Source of the DNA: Treponema bryantii
GTDB lineage: Bacteria > Spirochaetota > Spirochaetia > Treponematales > Treponemataceae
Length of the DNA: 64,000 nucleotides
Reading direction: 5' to 3'
Assembly: GCA_015061465.1 (NCBI GenBank)
Contig: SUWN01000006.1
Coordinates: forward strand, 1 to 64,000
Position numbers and translations under genes: made by a program. Below the pieces are notes generated by a model. That model was not told the DNA's origin, did not search any database, and worked only from the letters and a program-made list of their open reading frames with translations. Shown here in pieces: positions 2,004 through 8,562 of this stretch. Position 1 is the stretch's first letter. Each line of letters starts with the position of its first letter.

Positions 2004-2378
2004 TTATTGTGTGTTATTTATTTCTTGTACTAGTGCAATTAATGATTTTTGAATGTTTTCTGGCAATTTTTCAAAATTATCTATTAATTCATAATATTTT
2101 ATATATTTTTTACTGCGCTCAATAACTTCTGAATTTATTTTTGTTTTTTGAGTTTCTTGAGATGATTGTATAGTTTGAGATTCTCCGCCTAGAAGCAAAT
2201 ATTCAACAGAAACACCTAATACTTTTGCAATTCTATAAGCAACATCGGCGGCAGGAATGCTTCCGCGAGCAATACCGGTGGAAATACAATTTAATGAAAA
2301 CCCAGCTTCATAAGCTAGTTCTTTTCTTGAAAGATTTTTATATTCTCGTTCAGAATCAACTGTTTCCCAAAAAGTCAT
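2004..2378 (-). CDS. XRE/Cro-CI-type HTH repressor
   Basis: About 124 residues from the ATG at 2378; a longer frame from a TTG at 2396 would run into the operator. Residues about 8-65 form an XRE helix-turn-helix domain (SRKELAYEAGFSLNCISTGI, then the VAYRIAKVLGVSVEYLLLG ending usual in phage-like repressors). The C-terminal 55 residues are polar and predicted helical, probably for oligomerisation. The gene is divergent from the FRG-DGR operon, with four palindromic sites between them. It is therefore inferred to repress that operon and itself. There is no LexA-type autocleavage domain. Confidence 0.85.
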   Translation of the reverse strand: MTFWETVDSEREYKNLSRKELAYEAGFSLNCISTGIARGSIPAADVAYRIAKVLGVSVEYLLLGGESQTIQSSQETQKTKINSEVIERSKKYIKYYELIDNFEKLPENIQKSLIALVQEINNTQ

Positions 2379-2389
2379 GTTTATAGAAT

Positions 2390-2403
2390 AACACAATTGT
2401 GTT
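2390..2403. promoter_or_regulatory. Operator-like palindrome O1
   Basis: AACACAATTGTGTT is a perfect 14-bp palindrome just upstream of the repressor start and upstream of the -35 box of the divergent operon. It is the best match among four related sites in this gap, and the likely target of the XRE protein. Confidence 0.7.
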
Positions 2404-2504: not shown

Positions 2505-3599
2505 ATGGATGAATTAAAATTTGAATCAGTAAAATTAAAAAAGAAATACTTATATCAAGAAGCAGAAATAAAACTAAATGATAATAAATCACCTATGTTA
2601 TCTTTGATAGATTTATTTTATAGACCAAAAGAAGTTTTGGGAGAAGAAATATTTTATAAAATTTTTTTGTCGGATATAGATACAGAAGAAAACCATAAAA
2701 GAATAATAGAAAATAGAAATAATTTTCCGTGGAATGGTTGGGTTTTTAGAGGTTTGTCAAATTCTTCTTATGCCCTAAAGACTTCTATTGAAAGACTTTG
2801 TTTTTATCAAAAAGGTGAGGTAGATATTTTTCAAATAGAACAGGGCTTGATTAGAAATTTTAAGAGAAATTTGAGAGCATTTCATCCAAATTTAAGCTAT
2901 ATAAAAGATGATGATATTTATGAACACATGGCTATGTTGCAACATTTTGGTGGAGCAACAAGATTTTTAGATGTTACGTATTCATTTTTTGTTGCGTTAT
3001 TTTTTGCCACATATAATTTGAAAATAGAGAATGATAATAAAAAAGAAAAAAAATCCTTTTCTATTTGGTGTTTTAACAGAATGTGGATAGAAAATAAATA
3101 TAAAAAATTTTTACCTAAAAAAATTCTTAACATGTACAATGAATATGATAAATTTGGTAAAGATGTAAGAATTCAAAAAGAGGTGATAAATTATATACCA
3201 GAGTTAGTAGCATCTCATTCCAATCTAAGTGATGAATTTCTTTCCGTTATTAACATGTCGCCTTTTTATTCTAATACTAGAATGATCCGCCAACAAGGAA
3301 TGTTTTTGATGCCTACAAATCCTTTCCGCACATTTGAGGATAATCTTTTTAATATGGTTGAAGGCGAAGATGATTCATGGAGGATTCTTAAACTCTCTGT
3401 TCAATATGATGACAAGTCTTTGTTAGAAATAAAAAAAAGCTTAAATGATATGAATATAAATAAATTTGTGTTATTTGATAATTTGGATGGTCTTTGTGAA
3501 TCAATAAATGAAAAGATTAATTTTCCAAATGATTCATTAGCTGTGTCTCCAAATGCAGGGATTTCTTACCCGTCAAATAATTTCTTAGGAGGAAAATAA
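2505..3599 (+). CDS. FRG domain-containing protein
   Basis: A 364-residue cytoplasmic protein, first gene of the DGR operon. Residues about 75-170 carry the FRG signature: GWVFRGLSNSSYALKTSIER, then MLQHFGGATRFLDVT and a VALFFA-type helix. FRG is a domain of unknown biochemical function, often found near mobile and defence genes. The rest shows no recognised motif. The TAA stop is one base from the TTG start of the variable protein, whose Shine-Dalgarno lies inside this gene, so the two are probably translationally coupled. A direct role in retrohoming is not indicated by known DGRs; a regulatory or host-interaction role is possible. Confidence 0.85.
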   Translation: MDELKFESVKLKKKYLYQEAEIKLNDNKSPMLSLIDLFYRPKEVLGEEIFYKIFLSDIDTEENHKRIIENRNNFPWNGWVFRGLSNSSYALKTSIERLCFYQKGEVDIFQIEQGLIRNFKRNLRAFHPNLSYIKDDDIYEHMAMLQHFGGATRFLDVTYSFFVALFFATYNLKIENDNKKEKKSFSIWCFNRMWIENKYKKFLPKKILNMYNEYDKFGKDVRIQKEVINYIPELVASHSNLSDEFLSVINMSPFYSNTRMIRQQGMFLMPTNPFRTFEDNLFNMVEGEDDSWRILKLSVQYDDKSLLEIKKSLNDMNINKFVLFDNLDGLCESINEKINFPNDSLAVSPNAGISYPSNNFLGGK

Positions 3600-3600
3600 A

Positions 3601-4416
3601 TTGAAAAAACTTATTCTAGTATTATTAATGATGTTTATTACATCAGCAATATACGCTCAAAAGTCAATAGCTGTTTCAACTTTTGATATTATGGGTGGTG
3701 CAGTTACTAAAGATGAAGCTGAAGCAATAACAGAATTATTTATTTCTGAACTTGTTTCAACTGGAAAAGTTAATGTTGTAGACCGAGCAAACTTTGACAA
3801 ATTAATTGAAGAAATGAAATTTCAAAATTCAGACTTCTCAAATAGCGAAAAGACTGTTGCATTAGGGAATGCAGTAAATGCCAATTTGGTAATTCGTGGA
3901 AAAATTATGAAAGTTGGTAGTAGTATGTATTTATCTTCTACTGTTATTGACTTAAACACAGCAAATGTTCTTTCAAGTGCAAGAGAACAGTTTAATTCTA
4001 TAGACGATATTTTTGGCTTACTTACAAAATATGCAAAAAAAACAGTTGAAGGGCTTTCGTTAAAGATAGGTGATATTGGGCCAGGCAGTGGAATTGTATT
4101 CTATATTGAAGGTAAAAAAGCCTATGAAGTTAGTGAAATCCTTGGGGATGCAGACTGGGAAACAGCAAAGTCAATGGCAAAGAATTTTAGAGGTGGTGGA
4201 TATGATGATTGGTATTTACCTACAAAAGATGAATTAAATCTAGTGTATGAAAATTTAAGAAAGACAGGAATAATTTCTGGAGATTCTTGGTACTGGTCGT
4301 CGTCGCAGTGCAATGGTAATAATGCGTGGTATCAGAGATTCAGTGACGGTTATCAGGACAACCACAACAAGGATTATACCTATTCTGTTCGTGCCATTCG
4401 GGCTTTTAACAATTAA
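3601..4416 (+). CDS. DGR variable protein: exported CsgG-like + DUF1566/C-type-lectin-fold protein
   Basis: A 271-residue protein starting at TTG, supported by AGGAGG at 3587-3592 and a signal peptide from the first residue (cleavage near IYA-Q). Residues about 22-150 resemble the CsgG/LpoB-type domain (AVSTFD start, VVDRANFDKLIEEMKFQ). Residues about 158-271 resemble DUF1566/Lcl-type domains, a C-type-lectin-like fold (DWYLPTKDELN, WYWSSS, SVRAIRAF). The variable repeat encodes about residues 232-268. Nine residues differ from the template, all at Asn codons (at 237, 239, 244, 251, 253, 255, 258, 259, 261). There is no lipobox, so it is periplasmic or surface-exposed. It is the target of the adjacent retroelement, probably a variable ligand-binding protein. 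Confidence 0.9.
   Translation: MKKLILVLLMMFITSAIYAQKSIAVSTFDIMGGAVTKDEAEAITELFISELVSTGKVNVVDRANFDKLIEEMKFQNSDFSNSEKTVALGNAVNANLVIRGKIMKVGSSMYLSSTVIDLNTANVLSSAREQFNSIDDIFGLLTKYAKKTVEGLSLKIGDIGPGSGIVFYIEGKKAYEVSEILGDADWETAKSMAKNFRGGGYDDWYLPTKDELNLVYENLRKTGIISGDSWYWSSSQCNGNNAWYQRFSDGYQDNHNKDYTYSVRAIRAFNN
4293..4408 (+). repeat. DGR variable repeat (VR)
   Basis: This stretch aligns without gaps to the template at 4984-5099 (offset 691). Twelve differences fall on template adenines: 4309, 4310, 4315, 4316, 4330, 4351, 4357, 4363, 4372, 4375, 4380 and 4381. One further difference, G in the template and C here at 4403, is at the 3' edge beyond the invariant block CTGTTCGTGCCATTCGGG, which is the likely initiation-of-mutagenic-homology region. 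Eleven of the twelve change the amino acid. Confidence 0.97.
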
Positions 4417-4438
4417 ACTATTTAACTATTTATTTTTT

Positions 4439-4454
4439 ACCGCCGTAAGGCGGT
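4439..4454 (+). other. Hairpin downstream of the VR (candidate retrohoming cruciform)
   Basis: ACCGCC-GTAA-GGCGGT is a perfect 6-bp GC-rich stem with a GNRA-type tetraloop, about 30 bases after the end of VR homology. In the Bordetella phage DGR a GC-rich hairpin 3' of the VR promotes retrohoming; this is the equivalent position in an otherwise AT-rich gap. The 3' arm also overlaps the purine stretch before avd, so an effect on avd translation is an alternative. Confidence 0.6.
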
Positions 4455-4463
4455 CGTAAAGAT

Positions 4464-4808
4464 ATGGCTTTGTATTATGATTTACCTGTGTTTAAGGAAA
4501 CTTATGCACTTACATTGAGACTTTTTGAATTAACTCAAAATTTTCCTAGAGAATATAAATTTACTCTTGGTCAGGATATAAAGCATGATTGCATAAATTT
4601 AGTACGTAGTATTTATAGGGCTAATAAATGTAAAGATAAAGCAATTTATCTTGAACATTTTTTAGATAATTTTGAAGTACTCAAGTTAGAAATTCGTCTT
4701 TGTAAAGATTTGCATCTTTTGAGTATAAAACAACAGTCCAATATTGCTGTTCAGATGGATAGCATTGGAAAACAGATTACAGGCTGGAGAAATTCTGTCC
4801 GTGTCTGA
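4464..4808 (+). CDS. avd: Avd-like DGR accessory protein (four-helix bundle)
   Basis: A 114-residue helical protein of the four-helix-bundle family related to Avd and to proteins encoded in 23S rRNA intervening sequences. Features are the FELTQNFPREYKFTLGQDIK segment and basic C-terminal helices ending QITGWRN. Avd forms a positively charged pentamer that binds the DGR reverse transcriptase and is required for mutagenic retrohoming. The order variable protein, avd, template, reverse transcriptase is the classic DGR order. The ATG at 4464 follows the 4439-4454 hairpin; no stronger Shine-Dalgarno is visible. Confidence 0.92.
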   Translation: MALYYDLPVFKETYALTLRLFELTQNFPREYKFTLGQDIKHDCINLVRSIYRANKCKDKAIYLEHFLDNFEVLKLEIRLCKDLHLLSIKQQSNIAVQMDSIGKQITGWRNSVRV

Positions 4809-4983
4809 TATGCCAGAATTCTTAGTGCTAAGGTGTTAAGAAGTGTGCAAGGTTTTTGTGTAAAAGCGATACAACTGCCAATATTACTGCTATTAAGCCT
4901 TTTGTTGGAATACAATTTGCCTATGAATGTTCACAATAGTGCAAAAGAACTGTTGTCTAATTAGCGGTACGTTGAAAGTTTTT

Positions 4984-5099
4984 CTGGTCGTCGTCGCAGA
5001 ACAATAATAATAATGCGTGGAATCAGAGATTCAGTGACGGTAATCAGAACAACAACAACAAGAATAATACAAATTCTGTTCGTGCCATTCGGGGTTTTA
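4984..5099 (+). repeat. DGR template repeat (TR)
   Basis: The template for the variable repeat at 4293-4408. It carries runs of AAC/AAT codons where the variable protein has varied residues, and about 40 adenines in the aligned part; only 12 differ in the present VR. Asn codons maximise amino-acid diversity under adenine mutagenesis while avoiding stop codons, the usual DGR template design. Homology starts at CTGGTCG and breaks after TTTTA. Confidence 0.97.
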
Positions 5100-5100
5100 C

Positions 5101-5117
5101 ACAAAAACCATTTTTGT
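5101..5117 (+). other. Short hairpin directly 3' of the TR
   Basis: ACAAAAA-CCA-TTTTTGT is a perfect 7-bp inverted repeat starting two bases after template homology ends. It could mark the 3' boundary of the template RNA, but A/T arms of this size also occur by chance here. Confidence 0.35.
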
Positions 5118-5127
5118 TAGAGATTTT

Positions 5128-6315
5128 ATGGATATTCAATATAATGTACCTATAGAAGATGTTTTCTCTGCATATTACGATTGTCGTAAACACAAACGTA
5201 ACAAAATAGGAGCATTATCTTTTGAAGTAGATTTAGAAAATAATTTAATTCAGTTGTGGGATGATTTACGGACAAAAAAATATAGAATATTACCTTCTAC
5301 GGTTTTTATCGTTGAAAAACCTGTAAAACGAGAAATCTTTGCTGCAAACTTTCGTGACAGAATTGTACATCATCTTCTTCTAATGTATTTGAATCCGTAT
5401 TTTGAAAAATATTTTATTTTTGATTCTTATTCTTGTAGGGTTGGAAAAGGTACGCATTTTGGTATTAAACGTGTAAATCATTTTATCCATAAATGTTCAG
5501 AAAATGGAAAATTAAACTGTTGGATTTTAAAATTAGATATTCAAAGTTTTTTTATGAACATTGATAAAAGAATTTTATATAATCGATTGATTGATTTTGT
5601 TAATTCTTACTATAAGGAAACAAATATTGATTTTGTGAAATATTTAGTAACTGTAATATTGTGGAATAATCCTACAGAAAATTGTATTTTTCATTCTCCA
5701 AAATCAAAGTGGGCTGATTTAAAATTTGGAAAAAGTTTGTTTGATGTTGATTTAAATCATGGTCTTCCTATTGGTAATTATACAAGTCAAGTTTTTGCTA
5801 ATTTTTATCTTTCACAGTTAGACCATTATTTGAAACATGAAAAAAAAATTGAATTTTATGGTCGTTATGTAGATGATTTTGTGATTGTTCATAAGTCAAA
5901 AACTGTATTAAGAAAACTTATCCCTGAAATAAATAATTTTTTATATGCTAATTTAGGTTTACAGTTAAATCCTAAAAAATTATATTTACAACCATATTAT
6001 AATGGAGTTAAATTTTTAGGATTTTTTATCAAGCAAAATCATATTATTGCGAATCCAAGAGTTTATCAAAATTTTGAAAAAACAATAGTAAAAAACAATT
6101 ATATAGTTCAGCAACATAAACCTACTAAAGAGGAACGAAATCATTTTATTTCTTCTGTGAATTCTTATTTAGGAATACTAAAACATTATAAAACATTCAA
6201 TATTCGTTCGGAAATAATCAAAAATAAAATATCAAAACTATGGTTCAAACAGATTTCAATTTACGGTAAATCTGAAAAAATAATCAAAACCTTAAAAGGA
6301 GCAATCAAAAAATGA
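5128..6315 (+). CDS. DGR reverse transcriptase
   Basis: A 395-residue reverse transcriptase without maturase, endonuclease or RNase H domains. Fingers/palm blocks are in order: RIVHHLLL (79-86), LDIQSFF with first catalytic Asp137, GLPIGNYTSQ (212-221), the motif with Gln that characterises DGR enzymes, and YVDD (247-250) with the other two Asp. The thumb follows to the C terminus. With Avd it would copy the template RNA and misincorporate opposite adenines. The TGA stop overlaps the ATG of the next gene (ATGA). All catalytic residues are intact, so the element looks active. Confidence 0.95.
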   Translation: MDIQYNVPIEDVFSAYYDCRKHKRNKIGALSFEVDLENNLIQLWDDLRTKKYRILPSTVFIVEKPVKREIFAANFRDRIVHHLLLMYLNPYFEKYFIFDSYSCRVGKGTHFGIKRVNHFIHKCSENGKLNCWILKLDIQSFFMNIDKRILYNRLIDFVNSYYKETNIDFVKYLVTVILWNNPTENCIFHSPKSKWADLKFGKSLFDVDLNHGLPIGNYTSQVFANFYLSQLDHYLKHEKKIEFYGRYVDDFVIVHKSKTVLRKLIPEINNFLYANLGLQLNPKKLYLQPYYNGVKFLGFFIKQNHIIANPRVYQNFEKTIVKNNYIVQQHKPTKEERNHFISSVNSYLGILKHYKTFNIRSEIIKNKISKLWFKQISIYGKSEKIIKTLKGAIKK

Positions 6316-7115
6316 AAAAACTACTTACACTAATCTTATCAATGTTTGTTACATTATCTGTTTCTGCCCAAACCGTGGCAGTTTTTGACTTTGACTGTGA
6401 TGATTTTGCTTTTTACGACAAAGTTTCTACAATGACAGACCTTTTGTGTCATCAACTTGTTCAAGATGGAAATGTTACTTTGGTAGAACGTAAAAATCTT
6501 GATAAAGTAAAAGATGAAATGAAGTTTCAAATGGAAGGTTGGACTGACGCTGCTACTGTAAAGCAAGCTGGAAAAATGCTTAATGCGGATTGTATAATTG
6601 TTGGTAGTGTGGCTGTTTTAGGGTGTCCTCTTTATATTACGGCAAGAATGATTGAAGTTGAAACAGGAAAAATTCTTCATTCTGCAAAAATGAGTCTTGA
6701 TGTATGGAGCGATTACGAAAAACAACTTCCTAAATTTGCAAAAGATTGTGTAGAAAAAATGCCGGTTCCAGATTATTTTGCAGGAACATGGCAAACTTCA
6801 GTTTCTATGGGTTCTGCTGATTATGATTATGAAATCAAATTGGAAAAAAATGGAAAATGTTCTGTAAAAGTTGTAACTTACGATAGTGCTGGAACAGAAA
6901 AAACACAAACTGCAAATGGAACGTACAGTCATGACAAAGATTTTTTCCGATTAAACGTAAACTTCCGAAATGCTTCCATAGAAAACCTCCGAAAACTTGC
7001 TTGGCGTAGTGTTTATGTTTTTAATAAAGATAAATCTTCTTTTAATATTTTAATTCCTGCAACTAATGCGGAAACTTCTGCAAATACTAGAATAACTTTA
7101 GTAAAAGTGGAATAG
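6312..7115 (+). CDS. Exported CsgG-like protein, non-variable paralogue of the DGR target
   Basis: A 267-residue protein with signal peptide (cleavage near VSA-Q). Its N-terminal domain (about 21-150) is homologous to that of the DGR target: AVFDFD start and LVERKNLDKVKDEMKFQ against VVDRANFDKLIEEMKFQ. The C-terminal domain (about 155-267), starting YFAGTWQTS, is predicted all-beta and lipocalin/immunoglobulin-like in appearance; it has no template homology. The start overlaps the reverse transcriptase stop and follows AAAGGAG. Inference: it may partner the variable protein through the shared domain. The terminator at 7128-7171 closes the operon. Confidence 0.8.
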   Translation: MKKLLTLILSMFVTLSVSAQTVAVFDFDCDDFAFYDKVSTMTDLLCHQLVQDGNVTLVERKNLDKVKDEMKFQMEGWTDAATVKQAGKMLNADCIIVGSVAVLGCPLYITARMIEVETGKILHSAKMSLDVWSDYEKQLPKFAKDCVEKMPVPDYFAGTWQTSVSMGSADYDYEIKLEKNGKCSVKVVTYDSAGTEKTQTANGTYSHDKDFFRLNVNFRNASIENLRKLAWRSVYVFNKDKSSFNILIPATNAETSANTRITLVKVE

Positions 7116-7127
7116 TTTTGTTATTAT

Positions 7128-7171
7128 ACACCTAGTATATTTTTTTACAGAAATATGCTGGGTGTTTTTTT
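7128..7171 (+). terminator. Intrinsic terminator; right copy of the 44-bp direct repeat
   Basis: Identical over 44 bases to 1950-1993, ending in eight T. It terminates the DGR operon ahead of the convergent M20 gene. Sequence outside the 44 bases is unrelated at the two sites. Confidence 0.9.
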
Positions 7172-7182
7172 TATATAAATTC

Positions 7183-8562
7183 CTACGCAAGCGCTTCTAA
7201 TAGATTTGCGTAAAATTCTACGGTTTTAATCAAAATTTCTGTGCTGATTCTTTCGTTTTTACCGTGAATCATGGCGCGTTCTTCTTTGGAAAGGAACATT
7301 CCACTGAATCTGTAAACTTTGTCTGAAATTGCACAATAATGTCGGCTGTCGCTGCAAGCCATCATCAAATATGGTGAAACTAAAATTTCTGGCCAAGTTT
7401 TATTTATCACGTCGCAAAGTGTTTTCCATTGTTCGCAATTTGTGTCAGAAACTAACGATGGATTGTTTCCTTGTAAAATTTTTGTAGAAATCTTTGCGTT
7501 TTTGCCAAGAACTTTTTTTGCGTACTTTAGAATTCTATTTTCGGCGTTTTGAATTGTGTCTTTTCCAAGCAAACGTAAGTTTAAGCCGATTTTTGCTTGC
7601 GAAGGTAAAACGTTGTAGGCTTTGCTTCCTTCCATCATTGTTACTGCGCAAGTTGTGTGAAGCAAAGCAAAAAGTTCGCCACCGATGATTTTTGAAGCCA
7701 AACTTACTAAAGGTTTTGTAATTGTAAGGTTACTGAACAAAAAACGTAACGCTGGATTTTTGTTGTTTGGTCCCATCACATTAAAAAGTTCTTTTACAGG
7801 TTTTGTAAATTCTGTTTTACAAGTGTGTTTTTCAATTTCTGTTACAACTTTGCTTGCAAGTCCCACTGCCGAATTTTTGGAAGGCGCAGAAGCATGGCCC
7901 GCTTTTCCTTCTATTATAACGTCCATATTTATAAAACCTTTTTCGGCAGTTCCAACCATTGCACAACGTTTGGAAACTCCCGGGAACGCATTTTCTACAA
8001 TTGCGCCACCTTCATCAAGAACAAATTCCACGTTTATATTTTGATTTTTGAACCATTGAACAATTTCGCTAGTTGTATCGCCAGAAATTTCTTCTTCGCC
8101 CGAAAAACACAAATATAAATCAGTTTTTGGAAGCCAGCCTTCTTTTAATTTGATTTCCACCGATTCCATAATCGCGCATAAAGTTCCTTTTGTGTCCAAC
8201 GTTCCTCTTCCGCGAATAAATTCTCCTTGTGCAGTTTGAACAACGTCGCCACAAAAAGCTGGAAAATCCCATTCTTCCTGAACAGCCGGAACAACATCGT
8301 AATGAGCCATCAAAACCTTTGCGCATTTATTTTGTGTTTCCGCATTTTTTCCTGAAATTTTATGAACTAAACCCGTTTTTCCTACTTTAAAAAAATCGCA
8401 CTTTTGATAAATCGTCGGAAAGTTTTGGCGCAAAAGATTCTGGAATTTTTCATATTGCGACCAATCCACAAGTTCATCATCTTGATAAGAAACAGTCGCG
8501 CATTGAATCATTTTGCACATATCATCAATAATTTTTTCTTTTGTTTCCGTAGTAAAATTCAT
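7183..8562 (-). CDS. M20 family metallopeptidase (carboxypeptidase/deacylase type)
   Basis: About 459 residues from the ATG at 8562, preceded on the mRNA by GGAG; an upstream TTG extension to 8622 is unlikely. M20 di-zinc motifs are present: MAHYDVVPA, GRGTLDTKG, FSGEEEISGD and a VLDEGGAI segment, with a central dimerisation domain after about residue 200. Relatives include yeast carboxypeptidase S and ArgE/DapE, which cleave amide bonds at free carboxyl ends. It has no signal peptide, so it acts in the cytoplasm. It is convergent with the DGR operon. Confidence 0.9.
   Translation of the reverse strand: MNFTTETKEKIIDDMCKMIQCATVSYQDDELVDWSQYEKFQNLLRQNFPTIYQKCDFFKVGKTGLVHKISGKNAETQNKCAKVLMAHYDVVPAVQEEWDFPAFCGDVVQTAQGEFIRGRGTLDTKGTLCAIMESVEIKLKEGWLPKTDLYLCFSGEEEISGDTTSEIVQWFKNQNINVEFVLDEGGAIVENAFPGVSKRCAMVGTAEKGFINMDVIIEGKAGHASAPSKNSAVGLASKVVTEIEKHTCKTEFTKPVKELFNVMGPNNKNPALRFLFSNLTITKPLVSLASKIIGGELFALLHTTCAVTMMEGSKAYNVLPSQAKIGLNLRLLGKDTIQNAENRILKYAKKVLGKNAKISTKILQGNNPSLVSDTNCEQWKTLCDVINKTWPEILVSPYLMMACSDSRHYCAISDKVYRFSGMFLSKEERAMIHGKNERISTEILIKTVEFYANLLEALA

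Follow-up and report, generated by a model that had tools for sequence, protein, structure and literature searches.

How a diversity-generating retroelement (DGR) chooses its target over its template is only partly understood, and a locus of Treponema bryantii raises the question of what, beside its variable repeat, could mark the target. The window, that is the whole stretch analysed (64,000 nucleotides, positions 1 to 64,000 of contig SUWN01000006.1, assembly GCA_015061465.1), holds at this locus what is almost certainly a chromosomal DGR that diversifies a secreted C-type-lectin domain, its target being marked on the 3′ side by an IMH mismatch, a hairpin and, in a putative role, a tandem octamer array. 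The features are the following.

3601-4416, plus strand: DGR target (variable protein), 271 aa, identified by Pfam and a structure model.
4293-4408, plus strand: variable repeat (VR), a 116-base direct repeat of the template repeat, 89% identical to it.
4403-4408, plus strand: IMH-like 3′ end of the VR, C (where the template repeat has G5094) and then TTTTA.
4405-4431, plus strand: tandem octamer array TTTAACAA TTAAACTA TTTAACTA TTT, a candidate target-site element.
4439-4454, plus strand: GC-rich hairpin ACCGCC-GTAA-GGCGGT, 30 bases behind the VR.
4464-4808, plus strand: avd, accessory variability determinant, 114 aa (Pfam bAvd PF22296, 2.3e-22).
4984-5099, plus strand: template repeat (TR), with 41 adenines and 14 AAY (Asn) codons out of 38 in the VR frame.
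5128-6315, plus strand: DGR reverse transcriptase (RT), 395 aa (PHROG 1423, 5e-95).

An earlier note, made from the sequence alone, had described these parts as a complete DGR in the classic order target-avd-TR-RT, which is confirmed by the family models, by an alignment of the RT to Bordetella bRT that supports its DGR identity, and by eight TR/VR pairs found in relatives. The note had also assigned the RT to the DGR type, with intact catalytic residues and a GxxxSQ motif. This assignment is right, since the RT is full length and carries LPIGNYTSQ and YVDD. The protein further matches Pfam RVT_1 (7e-19) and, in a phmmer search, the reverse transcriptase chain 8ub7_A (1.2e-28); nine related RTs match it at 47-56% identity, and it keeps every invariant residue. 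The avd product matches PHROG 3206 'Avd protein of DGR' (1.1e-25), shares 71-74% identity with the Avd of relatives and scores 71.9 bits against NCBIfam DivGenRetAVD, slightly below the cut-off of 80.

Compared base by base, the VR and the TR differ at 13 positions, 12 of which are TR adenines (5000, 5001, 5006, 5007, 5021, 5042, 5048, 5054, 5063, 5066, 5071 and 5072). With 41 adenines among 116 TR bases, such a concentration has a hypergeometric p of 1.1e-5, and the 75 TR positions occupied by other bases contain a sole mismatch, one G/C near the 3′ end (TR G5094, VR C4403). The claim that all 12 internal differences fall on template adenines is correct to the base, and the count of nine template Asn codons changed in the target is likewise borne out (four to Tyr, two to Asp, and one each to Cys, Gly and His). 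One VR/TR change is silent (T260), and this change together with the spread of the Asn codons appears as mutation would give, rather than selection alone. The AAY density of the TR compares with 13 of 230 codons in the target gene upstream of the VR. Scanning fourteen relative loci yielded eight further TR/VR pairs, in seven loci from relatives in the order, each with 14-21 adenine differences and with the differences concentrated at template adenines. Adenine-restricted transfer from TR to VR has thus taken place in this lineage, as the note had proposed. A DNA-similarity search of the same genome for other VRs returned only 4293-4408; further targets may have been missed, as the source is a single metagenome-assembled genome that is 83% complete. 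An Rfam search with the TR RNA gave no match.

The target gene starts with TTG at 3601, preceded by AGGAGG, and encodes a signal peptide, a CsgG/LpoB/FlgO-like part (approximately aa 40-132) and a C-terminal Lcl_C/C-type-lectin domain (approximately aa 153-271), with Pfam matches to Lcl_C (6e-12), CsgG (5e-6) and LpoB (1e-5). The VR lies at the 3′ end of the gene, inside the lectin-fold domain. Folding the target from its single sequence gave a pLDDT of 36, and we used instead an AlphaFold model built with 20 aligned sequences, in which pLDDT exceeds 90 across most of aa 170-270. Among PDB structures this model is closest to 8q4e (VIA Z 17, rmsd 3.5, 122 aligned), the C-terminal domain of Legionella Lcl, and many C-type lectins match the model at Z 9-11; the variable domain thus has a predicted C-type-lectin fold. 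The CsgG-like assignment is based on Pfam, because the N-terminal half of the target is poorly modelled. The signal peptide and the CsgG/LpoB-like part suggest that the lectin would act as a variable binder in the periplasm or at the cell surface. Another secreted protein of the CsgG/LpoB type is encoded directly behind the RT, at 6312-7115; it shares 34% identity with the target's N-terminal part and is likely a paralogue that lacks the lectin domain.

The flanking genes encode a MatE transporter and a peptidase-like protein, and the only phage-like gene nearby encodes a CI-like regulator (2004-2396, minus strand), a CI/RstR-like phage-type repressor divergent from a gene for an FRG-domain protein (2505-3599) that is related to the PADLOC candidate defence family PDC-S15 (2e-35). 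The FRG gene ends one base ahead of the DGR target gene and may share an operon with it; no FRG-domain gene turned up next to any of the other DGRs inspected. A terminator-like sequence of 44 bases occurs in identical form at 1950-1993 and 7128-7171, and nowhere else in the assembly. These repeats bracket the block HTH-FRG-target-avd-TR-RT-CsgG and may mark how it arrived; no empty site for an island between them was found, and relatives with the flanking peptidase lack the same neighbourhood.

Close RTs are rare, being present in 12 of 294 genomes of the order and 14 of 393 Spirochaetota genomes. The RT relatives among phage and plasmid records are all less than 60% identical, and a search with the single RT protein against genome contigs and viral contigs found no relatives. 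Broken RT remnants are present in three genomes of the genus, which indicates that such elements do die there. Lectin genes bearing the array described below lie near broken RT fragments, within approximately 1.3 kb in genomes G007 and G208 (contig 43) and approximately 2 kb away in G210. In genome G307 (L068, 1349-2185), the first half of avd is fused to the second half of the RT, with loss of the TR and of the first half of the RT, and this fusion sits between two CsgG-lectin target genes.

The 13th VR/TR difference had been regarded as a mere effect of the 3′ edge of the repeat. This view did not hold, as relatives have kept a mismatch between VR and TR there: in most of them the VR ends in CGGGC-TTTTAAC and the TR in CGGG(G or A)-TTTTACAC. 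We therefore read G5094/C4403 as an IMH/IMH* mark, and its position fits an IMH/IMH* boundary rather than edge noise. Such a mark is known from Bordetella (PMC12875486), and one has been proposed in T. denticola (PMC4891356). Hairpins with a 6-bp stem, a 4-nt loop and at least 4 GC pairs occur only twice within the 64-kb window, one of them behind the VR. The published DGR hairpin 3′ of the VR has a stem of 7-10 bp, a GRNA loop and a distance of 4-34 bp (PMC3240598); the hairpin described here, at a distance of 30 bp, lies outside this consensus in its stem (6 bp) and its loop (GTAA).

Between the VR and the hairpin runs the octamer array, with the unit (TTYARYNN)n, which overlaps the stop codon of the target gene (4414-4416). 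The pattern AACYATTYAACYATTT is found once in the 2.06-Mb assembly, and the VRs of relatives carry the same kind of array 3′ of them. The motif model alone is unspecific in this AT-rich window, where position 8048 scores higher.

We surveyed the array in 80 viral loci chosen by their RT alone, 70 of which yielded TR/VR pairs. The sequence 3′ of 76 non-redundant VRs shows an autocorrelation at lag 8 of 0.35 versus 0.268 after shuffling (z 11.3), and the period echoes at lags 16 and 24. In the same viral loci this signal is absent behind the TR (z -1.9), and there is none in the next 56 bases past the VR-adjacent stretch; upstream of the TR, lag 8 reaches z 3.5. The resulting motif model, TT-[TC]-[AG]-N-[TC]-N-N, is above threshold in 41 of the 76 VRs; constraint is strongest at its two T columns, and roughly one-third of the units have C in the third. 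Over 461 kb, the model, which was trained on the scanned loci themselves, matched at 45 VR ends, at 2 other places on the same strand and at 2 on the opposite strand; the two same-strand matches away from known VR ends resemble further VR ends. When the model was trained on half of the loci and scored on the other half, the matches numbered 16-27 at VR ends, 2 elsewhere and, on the opposite strand, 3-5.

An exact 19-mer search agrees on position. In the 294 genomes of the order it returned 11 sites, 10 of them behind a C-type-lectin gene (2 sites for the reversed control); in viral contigs, C-type-lectin genes precede 20 of the 63 sites, as compared with 1 of 61 sites of the reversed pattern. 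The total count in viral contigs is not above that of the control (56 versus 61 stretches), so that only position is special there. Mapped on the RT tree, presence of the array requires 8 changes versus 37 with shuffled labels, and thus tracks RT lineage. In the set led by BPP-1, no VR has the octamer array, and the periodicity was not seen in the BPP-1-like group, which comprises only 6 non-redundant sequences; the array is therefore not required by every DGR. Another DGR lineage in that set carries TCTGNNNN-type units with signals at lag 7 (z 8.2) and lag 8 (z 4.6), from 16 sequences. At L414-L442, a DGR lineage other than that of the window shows TCTG-type units in tandem, repeating every 7-8 bases, between the VR and a hairpin with a GATA, GACA or GGTA loop. 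The viral contig L099 contains, at approximately 5000-6800, at least 5 tandem lectin units at a spacing of 344 bases, all of them ending in VRAVRAS; four then carry the exact octamer motif, so that the whole looks like a series of DGR target cassettes.

Could the repeats have arisen in another way, or the cassette have fallen silent? Ordinary duplication, in which a lectin-gene end was copied and VR and TR then diverged, would agree with the TR being open in the VR reading frame, and yet its probability is close to nil, given that 12 of the 13 differences fall on adenines (p 1e-5) and that the pattern recurs in relatives alongside avd and RT. That the DGR is complete but silent, with the VR as a record of past retrohoming in a cassette no longer active, we regard as rather unlikely. 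Loss is common, as seen from the scarcity of close RTs among Spirochaetota and from the RT remnants in the genus, and one VR was found; against this, the element has retained an intact RT, Avd, TR, IMH and hairpin, and no non-A substitution is seen within the copied tract although such bases fill most of it. Because the RT keeps the residues invariant in its clade and the copied tract shows differences at A only, it is plausible, as judged from sequence, that the DGR is presently active.

For the array, one alternative is that it secures a translation stop in all frames and is not a target-site element. Since 8 mod 3 = 2, a stop triplet cycles through each frame; the array overlaps the stop codon here, and TTTAA yields TAA in shifting frames. 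This reading is weakened by the two T that form the strongest columns and are unneeded by a stop triplet, as well as by the frequent C in the third column, which breaks the stop, and the array also tracks RT lineage; we hold it to be very improbable. Nor do we expect, with somewhat less assurance, that the array is a by-product, its units added by slippage where the cDNA joins at the IMH end and kept only by descent. Its position does coincide with the joining point, and its inheritance goes with RT lineage; however, units within one array differ from one another yet keep the period and the TT, and the array persists among target ends that are less than 72% alike. We slightly favour a third cis-element beside IMH and hairpin, namely 7-8-base units of lineage-specific sequence, arrayed in tandem immediately 3′ of the VR and absent at the TR ((TTYARYNN)n here, TCTGNNNN-like elsewhere), which would aid targeting by RT, Avd and cDNA as well as the direction of retrohoming, and would mark remote or orphan targets. 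As such, the octamer array is a candidate new target-site element. We found no description of such an array in the DGR papers that could be searched openly, and an earlier account may exist elsewhere; the element itself is of a known DGR kind, and the novelty of the array is limited to the accessible literature.

Work on BPP-1 has described how RT-Avd makes cDNA from TR RNA, with adenine mutagenesis and hairpin-aided homing at the IMH (PMC12875486, PMC3240598). Following this Bordetella model, the avd-TR-RT transcript would serve as the template, the RT-Avd complex would copy the TR from its 3′ end, inserting random bases opposite adenines, and the cDNA would replace the VR, entering at the IMH end. 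The 41 template adenines would allow approximately 1e22 variants of the secreted C-type-lectin domain. The target would be distinguished from the template by the 3′ IMH mismatch, the (TTYARYNN)n array and the GC-rich hairpin, all absent at the TR, with the array presumably taking part in target recognition. If this is true, an array that is found at targets, not at templates, and that varies between RT lineages would make one part of target choice open to direct testing; as a finder of remote targets, it has revealed lectin genes in genomes with broken RTs. With this locus, a genus poor in close DGR RTs also gains a cellular DGR whose target is a CsgG-like/lectin protein.

The T. bryantii element shares with BPP-1 (mtd-avd-TR-brt) its gene order, adenine-restricted VR/TR differences, RT family and Avd, as well as a VR at the 3′ end of the target, an IMH difference and a hairpin 3′ of the VR (PMC3240598). 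The BPP-1 target is a phage tail protein, whereas the T. bryantii DGR is chromosomal and its target a secreted host protein. An octamer array separates VR and hairpin here and not in BPP-1, and the spacer between TR and RT measures 28 bases versus approximately 144, so that the spacer RNA, which primes synthesis in BPP-1, must be shorter or extend into the RT gene. The Treponema denticola DGRs (TvpA and others) are likewise from a spirochaete and cellular, with secreted targets and IMH-like 3′ ends, but have mostly lipoprotein targets, several per genome, and an accessory gene between TR and RT (PMC4891356). The T. bryantii DGR, unlike these, has one target found, with a CsgG-like part, and avd before the TR; inspection of this target by eye revealed no lipobox. 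Legionella Lcl and other Lcl_C proteins share the fold of the variable domain (8q4e; Pfam Lcl_C). Lcl is a collagen-like adhesin, whereas the T. bryantii protein joins a CsgG/LpoB-like N-terminal part to a lectin that is the target of a DGR.
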